Source: Marivita hallyeonensis (GTDB lineage Bacteria; Pseudomonadota; Alphaproteobacteria; Rhodobacterales; Rhodobacteraceae). Taken from it: 64,000 bases of DNA. Shown here piece after piece: positions 5,792 through 8,967 of the stretch (position 1 is the first letter of the stretch; every line of letters starts with the position of its first letter). The notes beneath the pieces were generated by a model that searched no databases, was not told the origin of the DNA, and saw only the letters and a program-made list of their open reading frames with translations. The position numbers and the translations under genes are program-made. The stretch covers positions 434,001 through 498,000 of the forward strand of contig NZ_FQXC01000001.1 of the NCBI RefSeq assembly GCF_900129875.1, given 5' to 3'.

Positions 5792-7351
5792 TTACGCCAG
5801 ATCCCGGTAGGAGATCTCTTTCACGTCCTTGCCGGTCTTGCCGCGCCTTACGATCAGGCGGTTGAGCGCATTGATGTACGCCTTGGCGGACGCGACCACC
5901 GTGTCTGTGTCGGCGGACTGGCCCGTCGCGATCATGCCGTCTTCTTCCAGCCGGACCGTGACGGTTGCCTGCGCATCGGTGCCCTCGGTGACGGCGTGAA
6001 CCTGGTACAGCTGCAACCGGGCCTTGTTCGGATGCAAGATCCGCACCGCCTTGAAGGTCGCATCAACTGGACCGTCGCCTTCGGACGTGGCGCTTTGCTC
6101 TTTTCCGTCGATTTCCATTTCCAGCGTGGCTTCTGCGGGGCCGGTGCCGCAGGTCACGTGCAGGTTGACGAGTTGCAAAACGTCGTCGCCTTCAGAGGAT
6201 GCCGATACCAAGGCGAGAATGTCGTCGTCGAACACCTCTTTCTTGCGGTCTGCCAGATCCTTGAAACGGACGAAAATGTCCTTGAGCTGGTTGTCGCCGA
6301 CATCGACGCCCAACTCCTTGAGCTTGGCGCGCAAGGCGGCCCGGCCCGAGTGTTTGCCCAAGGGCAGGGAGGTGCCCGCGATGCCAACGTCCTCGGGGCG
6401 CATGATCTCGAACGTCTCGGCGTTCTTCAGCATCCCGTCCTGGTGAATGCCGCTCTCATGGGCAAAGGCGTTTTTGCCGACGATGGCCTTGTTGAACTGC
6501 ACCGGGAAGCCCGACACGGTGCTGACCCGGCGCGAAATGTGCATGATCTTCGTTGTGTCGATGCCGGTGTGAAAGGGCATGATGTCGTTGCGCACCTTGA
6601 GCGCCATCACCACCTCTTCCAGTGCCGTGTTGCCCGCCCGTTCGCCGAGGCCGTTGATCGTGCATTCGATCTGCCGCGCCCCGCCTTCGACCGCGGCCAG
6701 CGCGTTCGCCGTCGCCATGCCGAGGTCGTTGTGGCAATGGGTGGCAAAGACCACGTCGTCCGCACCCGGCACAGTTTCGATCAGCCGCTTGATCAGGTCG
6801 GCACTTTCCCGCGGCGCAGTGTAGCCCACCGTGTCTGGAATGTTGATGGTGCTGGCACCCGCCTTGATCGCGATCTCGACGACGTGACAGAGGTAGTCCC
6901 ATTCGGTGCGGGTCGCGTCCATCGGCGACCACTGGACGTTGTCGCAGAGGTTGCGGGCGTGGCTCACGGTCTGTTCGATCCGCTCGGCCATCTCGTCCTG
7001 CGTCAGGTTGGGGATGGCCCGGTGCAGCGGAGAGGTTCCGATGAAGGTGTGGATGCGTGGGCTTTTGGCGTGTTTGACCGCCTCCCAGCAGCGGTCGATA
7101 TCCGGCAGTTGCGCTCGGGCGAGGCCGCAGATTACGGCGTCCTTGGCGCGCTCGGCGATCTCGCTCACCGCGCGGAAATCGCCTTCGGAAGCGATAGGAA
7201 ACCCGGCTTCGATGATGTCGACGCCCATGTCATCCAGAAGCTCTGCGATTTCGAGCTTTTCGTCATGGGTCATGGTGGCGCCCGGAGACTGTTCGCCGTC
7301 GCGCAATGTGGTGTCGAAGATCACCACTCGGTTTTTGTCTGAGTTCGTCAT
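5792..7351 (-). CDS. leuA: 2-isopropylmalate synthase
   Basis: 519 residues. Condenses acetyl-CoA with 2-oxoisovalerate, the first committed step of leucine synthesis. The catalytic TIM barrel opens with FDTTLRDGEQSPGATM (12-27), and the metal-binding ATHCHNDLG lies near 203-211, with NGLGERAGN following. The linker and LeuA allosteric domain (about 390-519), which senses leucine, is present: the protein is the usual bacterial length. The start at 7351 has only a weak purine stretch (GAAAGA) upstream. A Leu-rich leader ORF and a strong hairpin lie just upstream on the same strand (7400-7517), indicating translation-dependent attenuation. glyA is upstream on the same strand but separated by that leader region and a large hairpin. 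Confidence 0.97.
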   Translation of the reverse strand: MTNSDKNRVVIFDTTLRDGEQSPGATMTHDEKLEIAELLDDMGVDIIEAGFPIASEGDFRAVSEIAERAKDAVICGLARAQLPDIDRCWEAVKHAKSPRIHTFIGTSPLHRAIPNLTQDEMAERIEQTVSHARNLCDNVQWSPMDATRTEWDYLCHVVEIAIKAGASTINIPDTVGYTAPRESADLIKRLIETVPGADDVVFATHCHNDLGMATANALAAVEGGARQIECTINGLGERAGNTALEEVVMALKVRNDIMPFHTGIDTTKIMHISRRVSTVSGFPVQFNKAIVGKNAFAHESGIHQDGMLKNAETFEIMRPEDVGIAGTSLPLGKHSGRAALRAKLKELGVDVGDNQLKDIFVRFKDLADRKKEVFDDDILALVSASSEGDDVLQLVNLHVTCGTGPAEATLEMEIDGKEQSATSEGDGPVDATFKAVRILHPNKARLQLYQVHAVTEGTDAQATVTVRLEEDGMIATGQSADTDTVVASAKAYINALNRLIVRRGKTGKDVKEISYRDLA

Positions 7352-7399
7352 GTCAGAGGTCTTTCTGTCTTGTCCAAATCCGTCGGCGCGTCGCGGTCT

Positions 7400-7437
7400 C
7401 CTCTGAGCGGTCGCGCCGGAACGGCCGCGCTCAGAGG
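7400..7437 (-). promoter_or_regulatory. leuA leader hairpin (putative attenuator)
   Basis: On the minus strand CCTCTGAGCG (7437-7428) pairs perfectly with CGCTCAGAGG (7409-7400); the 18-base interior can extend the stem (CGCGGCCG against CGGCGCG with a bulge). The 5' arm overlaps the last Leu codon and stop codon of the leader peptide, so a ribosome held there would cover it. A third segment CCTCTGA (7359-7353), directly before the leuA ATG, can compete for the 3' arm. No T-run follows the hairpin, so whether it acts as a terminator, through Rho, or on translation is open. Confidence 0.65.
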
Positions 7438-7517
7438 CGGATTAGGAGAAGACGGCTGGCCAGCACAAGAGGCGCGCGGGAGCGCGTTTGAATTGCGATA
7501 TGGGCCATCGGTGTCAT
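7431..7517 (-). CDS. leuL: Leu-rich leader peptide of leuA, 28 aa
   Basis: Short frame read directly: ATG at 7517, TGA at 7433-7431. The peptide starts MTPMAHIAIQ and has leucines at LVL (17-19) and LLLIRL (23-28), that is 6 Leu among the last 12 residues plus Val and Ile; the Leu codons are CTT, CTG, CTT, CTC, CTA, CTC, including the rare CTA. Position and composition match amino-acid leader peptides that control leucine genes by ribosome stalling. No Shine-Dalgarno is possible if transcription starts as predicted: the hexamer TATAGT ends 7 bases before the ATG, so the mRNA would begin at or next to the start codon (leaderless), as described for the trpL leader of Sinorhizobium. Function is inferred. 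Confidence 0.72.
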   Translation of the reverse strand: MTPMAHIAIQTRSRAPLVLASRLLLIRL

Positions 7518-7524
7518 GCGCGCG

Positions 7525-7530
7525 ACTATA
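7525..7530 (-). promoter_or_regulatory. Candidate -10 box of the leuL-leuA transcript
   Basis: TATAGT on the minus strand, 7 bases before the leader ATG. A -35 element at 16-18 bases spacing is poor (CTTTTC/ACTTTT); TTGGTG lies too far at 24 bases. The assignment rests mainly on the -10 match and the position. Confidence 0.45.
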
Positions 7531-7611
7531 CGCGGCATTTTCCGAAAGAAAAGTCACCAATTGCGGAAATTTGGCCTGCGGCAGTACCGCGCCATTCAGT
7601 TTTTATCACAA

Positions 7612-7671
7612 AATTTACTGGGCGCGCCGCAGATTCTTCGTACGAAGAATCTGGCGGTGCCTCAGTAAATT
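7612..7671 (-). terminator. Large hairpin directly behind glyA
   Basis: A 60-base near-palindrome begins one base after the glyA stop codon. The centre is a perfect 22-base palindrome (7631-7652; half AGATTCTTCGT), flanked by GC-rich partly paired arms and closed by a perfect 9-bp outer stem AATTTACTG/CAGTAAATT. On the minus strand TTTTGTG follows, a weak U-tract. Probably the glyA terminator, isolating the leuA leader; it could also be a mobile palindromic element. Confidence 0.6.
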
Positions 7672-8967
7672 CTAGAGATCGGGATAGATCGGGAAACGCG
7701 CGCAGAGCTCGGCCACTTCGGCCCGCACCTTATCCTCGACCGCGCTGTTGCCCTCTTCGCCGTTGGCGGCCAGCCCGTCGACAACCTCGATGATCCAGTC
7801 GGCAATCTGACGGAATTCGGTCTCCATGAACCCGCGCGTCGTCCCCGCGGGCGTCCCAAGACGAATGCCCGAAGTCACCATCGGCTTTTCCGGATCGAAG
7901 GGCACGCCGTTCTTGTTGCAGGTGATATGCGCGCGACCCAGCGCTTTCTCGGTCGCGTTGCCTTTCACGCCTTTCGGACGCAGGTCGACCAGCAAAACAT
8001 GTGTGTCGGTGCCGTGCGTCACCGTATCAAGCCCACCCTTGATGAGCTGATCCGATAGCGCCTGAGCGTTGCGGATGACGTTCTGCTGGTAGGTTTTGAA
8101 CTCGGGGCGCAAGGCTTCACCAAACGCCACGGCTTTGGCCGCGATGACGTGCATCAGTGGGCCGCCCTGGATGCCCGGGAAGATGGCGGAATTGAACTTC
8201 TTCGCCAGTGCCTCATCATTCGTCAGTATCATCCCGCCGCGCGGACCGCGCAGCGTCTTGTGCGTCGTGGTCGTCGCAACATGCGCATGCGGGAACGGGG
8301 AGGGGTGCTCGCCCGCCGCGACGAGACCCGCAAAATGTGCCATGTCGACATGCAGATATGCGCCGACGCTGTCGGCGATTTCGCGCATGCGGGCAAAGTC
8401 GATCTGGCGCGGGATGGCAGATCCGCCCGCGATGATCAGCTTCGGCTGATGTTCGGTCGCAAGCGCCTGTACCTGATCGTAGTCCAGCAGATTGTCTTCC
8501 TTACGCACGCCGTACTGGATCGCGTTGAACCACTTGCCGGACTGGTTCGGCTTGGCGCCATGCGTCAGGTGACCGCCCGCATCAAGGCTCATGCCAAGGA
8601 TTGTGTCACCCGGTTGCAGAAGCGCGGTGAACACGCCCTGGTTGGCTTGCGAACCGGAATTCGGTTGTACGTTGGCAAAGCCGCAATCGAACAGCTTGCA
8701 GGCCCGTTCGATGGCAAGGTTTTCGGCCACGTCCACATACTGGCATCCGCCGTAATACCGACGCCCAGGATAACCCTCGGCATACTTGTTGGTCATCACA
8801 GACCCCTGCGCTTCCATCACGGCGCGGCTGACGATGTTCTCGGATGCGATCAGTTCGATCTCGTCGCGCTGGCGGCCCAGCTCGTCGGTGATCGACTTGA
8901 ACAGCTCGGGATCGCTGTCGGCGAGAGATTTTGTGAAGAATCCGGTTTCACGGTGCGGGGCATTCAT
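7672..8967 (-). CDS. glyA: Serine hydroxymethyltransferase
   Basis: 431 residues. PLP enzyme converting serine and tetrahydrofolate to glycine and 5,10-methylene-THF in the cytoplasm. Start chosen at 8967 ([11 protein letters not shown]) because AAGGAGG sits 8 bases upstream; the open frame runs 57 codons further upstream without conservation. Family blocks: [11 protein letters not shown] (near 37-47), [21 protein letters not shown], and the PLP-lysine motif [14 protein letters not shown] (near 235). Length is normal. It is divergent from nadK. With gcvTHP at 22-26 kb it would complete glycine/serine and C1 interconversion. Confidence 0.97.

Follow-up and report, generated by a model that had tools for sequence, protein, structure and literature searches.

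Upstream of leuA in Marivita hallyeonensis, and in many other Alphaproteobacteria, lies a leader that, judged from comparison of genomes, is real, widespread and probably leucine-sensing, a variant of the LEU element of Actinobacteria. Its parts are a short Leu-rich reading frame, a hairpin (P2) that contains the stop codon of this frame, a helix (P1) that joins the Leu codons to a stretch before the next gene and a helix (P3) formed with the P2 loop. The window is the whole stretch of DNA that was analysed (64,000 nucleotides); coordinates are window positions and all of the features named lie on its minus strand.

Leader reading frame and conserved helices

The presumed regulated gene, leuA (5792-7351), encodes a 2-isopropylmalate synthase of 519 aa (NF002087, TIGR00973, HMGL-like and LeuA_dimer). 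The leader ORF, leuL-like and 28 codons in length (7517-7431, stop codon TGA at 7433-7431), encodes the peptide MTPMAHIAIQTRSRAPLVLASRLLLIRL and is Leu-rich in its 3' half, with six Leu in the final 12 codons, one of them CTA. The -10 hexamer of the putative leader promoter, TATAGT (7530-7525), ends 7 nt before the leader ATG. An in-frame ATG further upstream gives a 35-aa version in the ORF list; the 28-codon start was preferred because its -10 hexamer stands at the distance that is conserved in relatives. The initial annotation had described this ORF and hexamer, reading them as a probably leaderless Leu leader peptide of leuA; both are present in the sequence and conservation supports the reading well. 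No leader ORF is annotated ahead of leuA in five annotated records (gene table incomplete). Further upstream in the window, just after glyA, a nested inverted repeat (7671-7611) of the form AATTTACTG...CAGTAAATT, with an inner AGATTCTTCGTACGAAGAATCT palindrome at 7652-7631, is perhaps the glyA terminator.

Conservation of the ORF is evident codon by codon. Among leaders with a clear start, Leu is found at codon -4 in all 54, at -5 in 49, at -6 in 51, at -7 in 40 and at -1 in 49. Across 65 leaders, codons -4 to -6 almost always begin with CT and are free at their third position; codon -7 follows this less strictly. The Leu codons at -4 to -7 are CTT (36.4%), CTC (23.3%), CTA (20.3%) and CTG (19.5%), compared with 55.7% CTG, 22.8% CTC, 8.2% CTT and 0.8% CTA within leuA itself at these loci. 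This excess of CTT and CTA has two possible causes, as pairing in P1 also explains CTT and CTA at codon -4. The peptides range in length from 13 to 38 and are poorly conserved in their middle part; many of those from Alphaproteobacteria terminate in LLLLSRL or LLLLSCP. Near the N-terminus, a His-Ile pair (7502-7497 in the window) is present in 34 of 54 leaders and is explained by neither pairing nor leucine sensing.

For the promoter, hexamers beginning with TA and matching TATAAT at no fewer than four of six positions were counted, with five displaced windows as the control. Such a hexamer stands 5-9 nt ahead of an in-frame ATG in 54 of the 65 leaders, at 7 or 8 nt in 50 of these 54, compared with 10, 3, 3, 2 and 3 of 65 in the displaced windows. 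An SD-like trimer precedes the leader ATG in only one of the 54 and is absent in the other 53. Given the spacing of 7-8 nt and the missing SD, leaderless initiation of the leader ORF is probably the simplest reading.

In the window, P1 pairs 14 of 16 positions between its 5' strand (7453-7438), composed of the Leu codons CTT CTC CTA followed by ATC and part of CGC, and its 3' strand CGGATTTGGACAAGAC (7382-7367) upstream of the leuA start. P2 is a perfect 10 bp hairpin with the 5' arm CCTCTGAGCG (7437-7428), which spans the final Leu codon together with the stop, and the 3' arm CGCTCAGAGG (7409-7400). P3 pairs 7/7 positions between CGGCGCG inside the P2 loop (7418-7412) and CGCGCCG (7390-7384). 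A plain fold of the window leader includes P1 and P2, with a stability z of -2.66 relative to shuffles, of which 1/200 was as stable or more so. P2, whose 5' arm spans the stop codon, had been noted in the initial annotation and proves to be conserved and covarying; P1 and P3, two further conserved helices, were absent from it.

An automatic best-hairpin search took other repeats in several of 31 loci, and a CCCCT pattern was used in its place. In 49 aligned sequences 96.7% of cells are paired and six of the ten pairs show double changes, values reached in 0/500 shuffles. The comparison upstream of leuA that the initial annotation had proposed returned both conserved Leu codons (-4 in every leader with a clear start) and compensatory changes in the stem. 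The stop codon varies between TGA, TAG and TAA and the opposite arm still matches; at three Caulobacter/Caulobacteraceae loci (L058, L070 and L071) the stop position reads TGG and the ORF continues. As whole-leader alignment by MAFFT misplaces the P1 3' strand, P1 and P3 were scored by a best-window search, with cross-species permutation as the control.

P3 joins the P2 loop (GGCGC) to GCGCC 5-13 nt downstream of P2. Perfect six-mers occur in 60 of 65 loci, compared with about 62% when the partners are swapped between species, and the exchanges GGTGC:GCACC and GGGCGC:GCGCCC are seen. A duplex-energy test over 64 loci gave p values of 3e-8 for P1 and 1e-4 for P3. In a wider alphaproteobacterial set (63 loci) P3 scores 5.83 against 5.61 (sd 0.08, maximum of 500 permutations 5.88) and is not clearly supported. 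P2 and P3 can form an H-type pseudoknot, and the loop medians of 8, 3 and 9 nt make their joint formation geometrically plausible. The loop reads GG[CT]GC in 64 of 65 loci and GYY directly follows the P2 5' arm in 56 of 65; pairing of these two could be an alternative, and would exclude P3.

For P1, the 9 bp score in 65 loci, mostly from Rhodobacterales, is 6.18 compared with 5.15 (sd 0.12, maximum 5.56) in 500 cross-species permutations, none of which reached the observed value. The exchanges include T-A/A-T, G-C/T-A/C-G and C-G/T-A/G-C/A-T. When mapped on a tree of the 65 LeuA proteins, P1 position 1 gave 11 independent pairs, with a mean of 9.2 concordant and 0 against (median p 0.004); the other two of the three positions were not significant (median p 0.125 and 0.5). 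The helix is weak in part, with a score of 5.0 or lower in 19 of 65 loci. In the Rhodobacterales set about 20 nt (median) separate the end of its 3' strand from the leuA start, so that the stem is usually upstream of a standard SD and not on it.

Outside the family of the window (62 loci), pairing of the Leu run with the pre-start stretch has an energy of -15.76 kcal/mol compared with -13.85 kcal/mol expected (sd 0.37), beyond all 2000 permutations; no more than 37 of the 62 loci do better than expected with their native partners. The 9 nt block directly before P2 gave a weak result in the wider set (4.99 versus 4.68, sd 0.11, maximum of 500 also 4.99; 63 loci, one from the family of the window); a wider block revealed that the P1 register moves 5' in these leaders, often including a GAAGGA-like SD sequence.

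Occurrence across genomes

The element, a hairpin with a Leu run, was found before 107 of the 109 leuA loci in which the leuA start is present, at least 17 of these 109 being from the genus of the window. A strict hairpin pattern (within 2 kb upstream) accounts for 78, a looser pattern for 23 (besides L063, which the strict pattern already covers) and the covariance model R1, built from 49 sequences and describing P2 only, for six (L029, L030, L033, L039, L041 and L109; E 0.004 or better). Of the remaining two, L049 has no element and L092 is cut by a contig end. By record title, the loci include many Rhodobacteraceae, as well as Bradyrhizobium, Afipia, Bosea, Microvirga, Rhizobium, Caulobacter and metagenome-assembled genomes labelled Sphingomonadales, Rhodospirillaceae and Kiloniellaceae. 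A 17.9 kb plasmid of Phaeobacter inhibens M650 also carries leuA together with the leader element (L115:2385-2444, R1 E 1.1e-11).

R1 was then run on 387 alphaproteobacterial genomes and matched 96, once per genome (E 0.001 or better). All 89 matches for which a LeuA place was listed lie on the same strand as leuA and upstream of it, 37-420 nt away. Four of the other seven were read. Two (L197 and L199) precede a leuA cut by a contig end, and two from one genus (L198 and L200) precede a leuA of the PRK03739/leuA_yeast type (family tested for L200) that is 73% identical to that of Sphingomonas parapaucimobilis; this suggests replacement of the enzyme gene behind a retained leader. A cruder pattern check, now superseded, had placed a hairpin before leuA in 49 of 52 R1 loci, the hairpin in two of these 49 (L123 and L125) being at another site.

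In the same draw 193 genomes encode this LeuA at E 1e-120, and 92 of them have an R1 match. Of 16 LeuA genomes without a match that were read, ten have the element by eye and six lack it; R1 thus undercounts, and true absences exist. In a sample from the whole phylum R1 matched 58 of 299 genomes, all 58 in the class of the window. A search of Rfam 15 with window positions 7000-7800 (E up to 10) returned a single hit, to a miRNA family at E 7 and well under the gathering score of that family; 14 relatives searched at gathering scores gave three tRNAs and no leader family.

At seven loci (L007, L027, L028, L083, L089, L096 and L099), and also at L092, a small gene stands between the element and leuA. 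Pfam assigns its product in L083, the only locus checked, to Cupin_2, and a small cupin-like gene has apparently been inserted into an attenuated operon. At the seven loci the element directly precedes the small gene and the P1 3' strand, by eye, ends 4-8 nt before its start; P1 lies near the start of whichever gene stands first.

Predicted mechanism and alternatives

We favour, with moderate confidence, the view that the leader is a LEU element in alphaproteobacterial form, acting as a leucine-dependent translational attenuator of leuA. This view takes the ORF, its codon bias, the -10 position, the covarying helices and the position before leuA from the sequence, and from them predicts a transcript start, ribosome stalling, the sign and size of a response and a role for the pseudoknot. 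Transcription would start at the leader AUG or within one or two bases of it, and ribosomes would initiate leaderlessly. In the free RNA, P1 would close a domain holding the P2/P3 pseudoknot and make the leuA start hard to open. With leucine plentiful, the ribosome would pass the Leu run, terminate inside P2 and leave, after which the domain would close and leuA would be poorly translated. With leucine scarce, it would wait on the Leu codons, among which CTA and CTT are over-used, and cover the P1 5' strand, leaving the leuA start open. The pseudoknot may keep the P1 strands together and slow the translating ribosome at the final codon and the stop. The predicted sign, with leuA on in the absence of leucine, fits biosynthetic logic.

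Opening energies were calculated for the leuA region from -20 to +5, with a 30 nt ribosome block placed on the Leu run or, as the control, an equal block upstream; the pseudoknot was ignored. With the ribosome on the Leu run the mean cost is 4.53 kcal/mol compared with 6.34 kcal/mol for the control (59 loci, p 3e-6), and in the window it drops from 9.73 to 4.75 kcal/mol. By locus, opening is cheaper by more than 0.5 in 40 of 59 and dearer by more than 0.5, the opposite sign, in ten of 59. The leuA start opens as well when the ribosome stands on the stop codon (5.03), and the off state would therefore need release of the ribosome and closing of the domain, rather than arrival at the stop codon.

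The main printed evidence against a mechanism that senses the codons comes from Streptomyces coelicolor. In the available text of PMC1262725, mutations in the leuA leader peptide are given as having some effect, inconsistent with classical attenuation, and the conclusion is that regulation is unaffected when the Leu codons are mutated and is unlikely to be attenuation of the classical kind.

In the loci analysed here, a classical transcription attenuator was rejected on two grounds. The competing strand is not conserved, and no U-run intrinsic terminator was found: within 60 nt after P2 the longest T run in 65 loci is 4, and five or more T in 8 nt occur after P2 in one of the 65. The initial annotation had already remarked that the window hairpin has no T-run and that the attenuator might therefore differ from the classical type. 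Both remarks hold; the mechanism that it offered in place of the classical one fails, and a translational, LEU-element-like design probably takes its place.

Transcription could nevertheless be the controlled step in another way, with the closed domain and an untranslated leuA exposing the transcript to Rho or to an unusual hairpin terminator, and the ribosome on the leader setting read-through. We consider this unlikely. In its favour, attenuation by a leader peptide is the scheme that textbooks give, and operons with the cupin gene in first place hint that the transcript is controlled as a whole. Caulobacter ilvBN, described in the available part of PMC4117421 as using leader-peptide attenuation, lends it a precedent. 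The missing U-run weighs against it, as does the placement of P1 close to the start of whichever gene is first.

Binding of a protein or small molecule by the element, as has been proposed for the actinobacterial LEU element with an ML1624-type helicase as the candidate, with the ORF being only a timer or a by-product, is quite unlikely. A compact pseudoknot domain with conserved sequence would suit a ligand, and the Streptomyces leader mutations led the authors of PMC1262725, in the text available, to favour a protein. Homologues of ML1624 at the cut-off used there are, according to the same text, found only in Actinobacteria. The Leu codons in our set are conserved as codons and show a bias to rare ones, although P1 pairing explains part of this bias.

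A leader acting mainly in trans, as a small RNA or functional peptide like rnTrpL/peTrpL of Sinorhizobium, is improbable. Leaderless ORFs on structured leaders do have an alphaproteobacterial precedent (PMC10117765, available text), and the His-Ile pair has no role in the cis model; the variable length and poorly conserved middle of the peptide argue against a function in trans, and there is no U-run terminator that would release a small RNA.

The initial annotation had proposed that the segment CCTCTGA (7359-7353) competes for the 3' arm of the hairpin, so that a blocked leader would leave the leuA start hidden. This has next to no probability: the 7 nt complement does exist in the window, but among 58 leaders the window alone has one within 20 nt of the start, so that the segment is best taken as a chance match outside the element and the idea falls as a conserved mechanism. 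The conserved P1 gives the reverse sign, blocking of the Leu codons lowering the computed cost of opening the start on average.

Relation to known elements

The actinobacterial LEU element, according to the available text of Seliverstov et al. (2005; PMC1262725), consists of a Leu-run uORF, a pseudoknot, a base stem between the Leu run and the leuA SD and an alternative hairpin; its authors proposed a protein regulator, close homologues of which were found only in Actinobacteria. Judged by that description, the alphaproteobacterial leader is alike in having a Leu-run uORF before leuA, a potential pseudoknot and a base stem formed from the Leu run. It differs in its occurrence in Alphaproteobacteria, mostly before the other LeuA type (PRK00915/TIGR00973), and in that P1 of Rhodobacterales ends about 20 nt before the leuA start and not on the SD. 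The leader stop codon lies in the P2 5' arm in most alphaproteobacterial elements and, by eye, in the loop in Nonomuraea and Microbacterium.

R1 was applied to eight leuA records, the actinobacterial leuA genes being those present in a plasmid collection. The best six places all lie upstream of leuA, with E values, which are rough for this model, of 9e-5 in Microbacterium and 2.6e-4 in Nonomuraea (26 kb each) and 0.0027 in Sphingomonas, and weak matches in Nocardia (0.087), S. meliloti (0.32) and Shinella (0.42). In the whole 465 kb record the Microbacterium leuA leader is the best R1 match (E 0.0016); on whole records the Nocardia leuA site was not recovered and the Tsukamurella record gave nothing. 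The core CTTCTTAGCTGCC is common to Microbacterium, Nonomuraea and some alphaproteobacterial leaders, and is absent from Nocardia and Tsukamurella. With E values this rough, common descent of the alphaproteobacterial and actinobacterial elements is possible but unproved. R1 gave no match at the Tsukamurella and Cupriavidus leuA genes; by eye, Cupriavidus metallidurans (L224) has a Leu-rich ORF end, a hairpin and a complement between the Leu run and the SD before its betaproteobacterial leuA.

Enterobacteria have a Leu-rich leader peptide upstream of leuA in their leuL attenuator (Rfam Leu_leader), from which the present leader differs in having no Rfam match and no terminator that could be seen. 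Streptomyces lividans leuL1 is described, in the available text of PMC8079986, as a leaderless leader before leuA that encodes MRFGLLLLSCRGEGL and has no typical terminator. The endings LLLLSRL and LLLLSCP resemble its end, and the lack of a terminator and the leaderless reading are also shared; leuL1 encodes a shorter peptide and belongs to an actinobacterium. The trpL/rnTrpL leader of Sinorhizobium meliloti, a tryptophan attenuator and dual-function sRNA with a leaderless ORF (PMC10117765, available text), is likewise alphaproteobacterial, and the leuA leader differs from it in being without a U-run terminator. In the literature searched we recognised no description of a leuA leader of this kind from Alphaproteobacteria; one may be mentioned in Vitreschak 2004 or Lopatovskaya 2010.

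A wider view, which we hold tentatively and at slightly under even chances, is that one ancient leucine switch read by the ribosome, with a Leu-codon helix over the leuA start and a stop-codon pseudoknot, is common to Actinobacteria and Alphaproteobacteria, and perhaps Betaproteobacteria, and has outlasted its enzyme where the gene behind it is now a PRK03739-type leuA (two genomes of one genus). The LEU element has been known from Actinobacteria, with its mechanism left open in the available text of PMC1262725. A similarly built element in many Alphaproteobacteria would weaken the case for an actinobacterial protein regulator and would let the question be studied in tractable organisms, for example Cereibacter sphaeroides and Caulobacter, with well over a hundred natural variants in which the codons, the stop codon and the helix strands change together.
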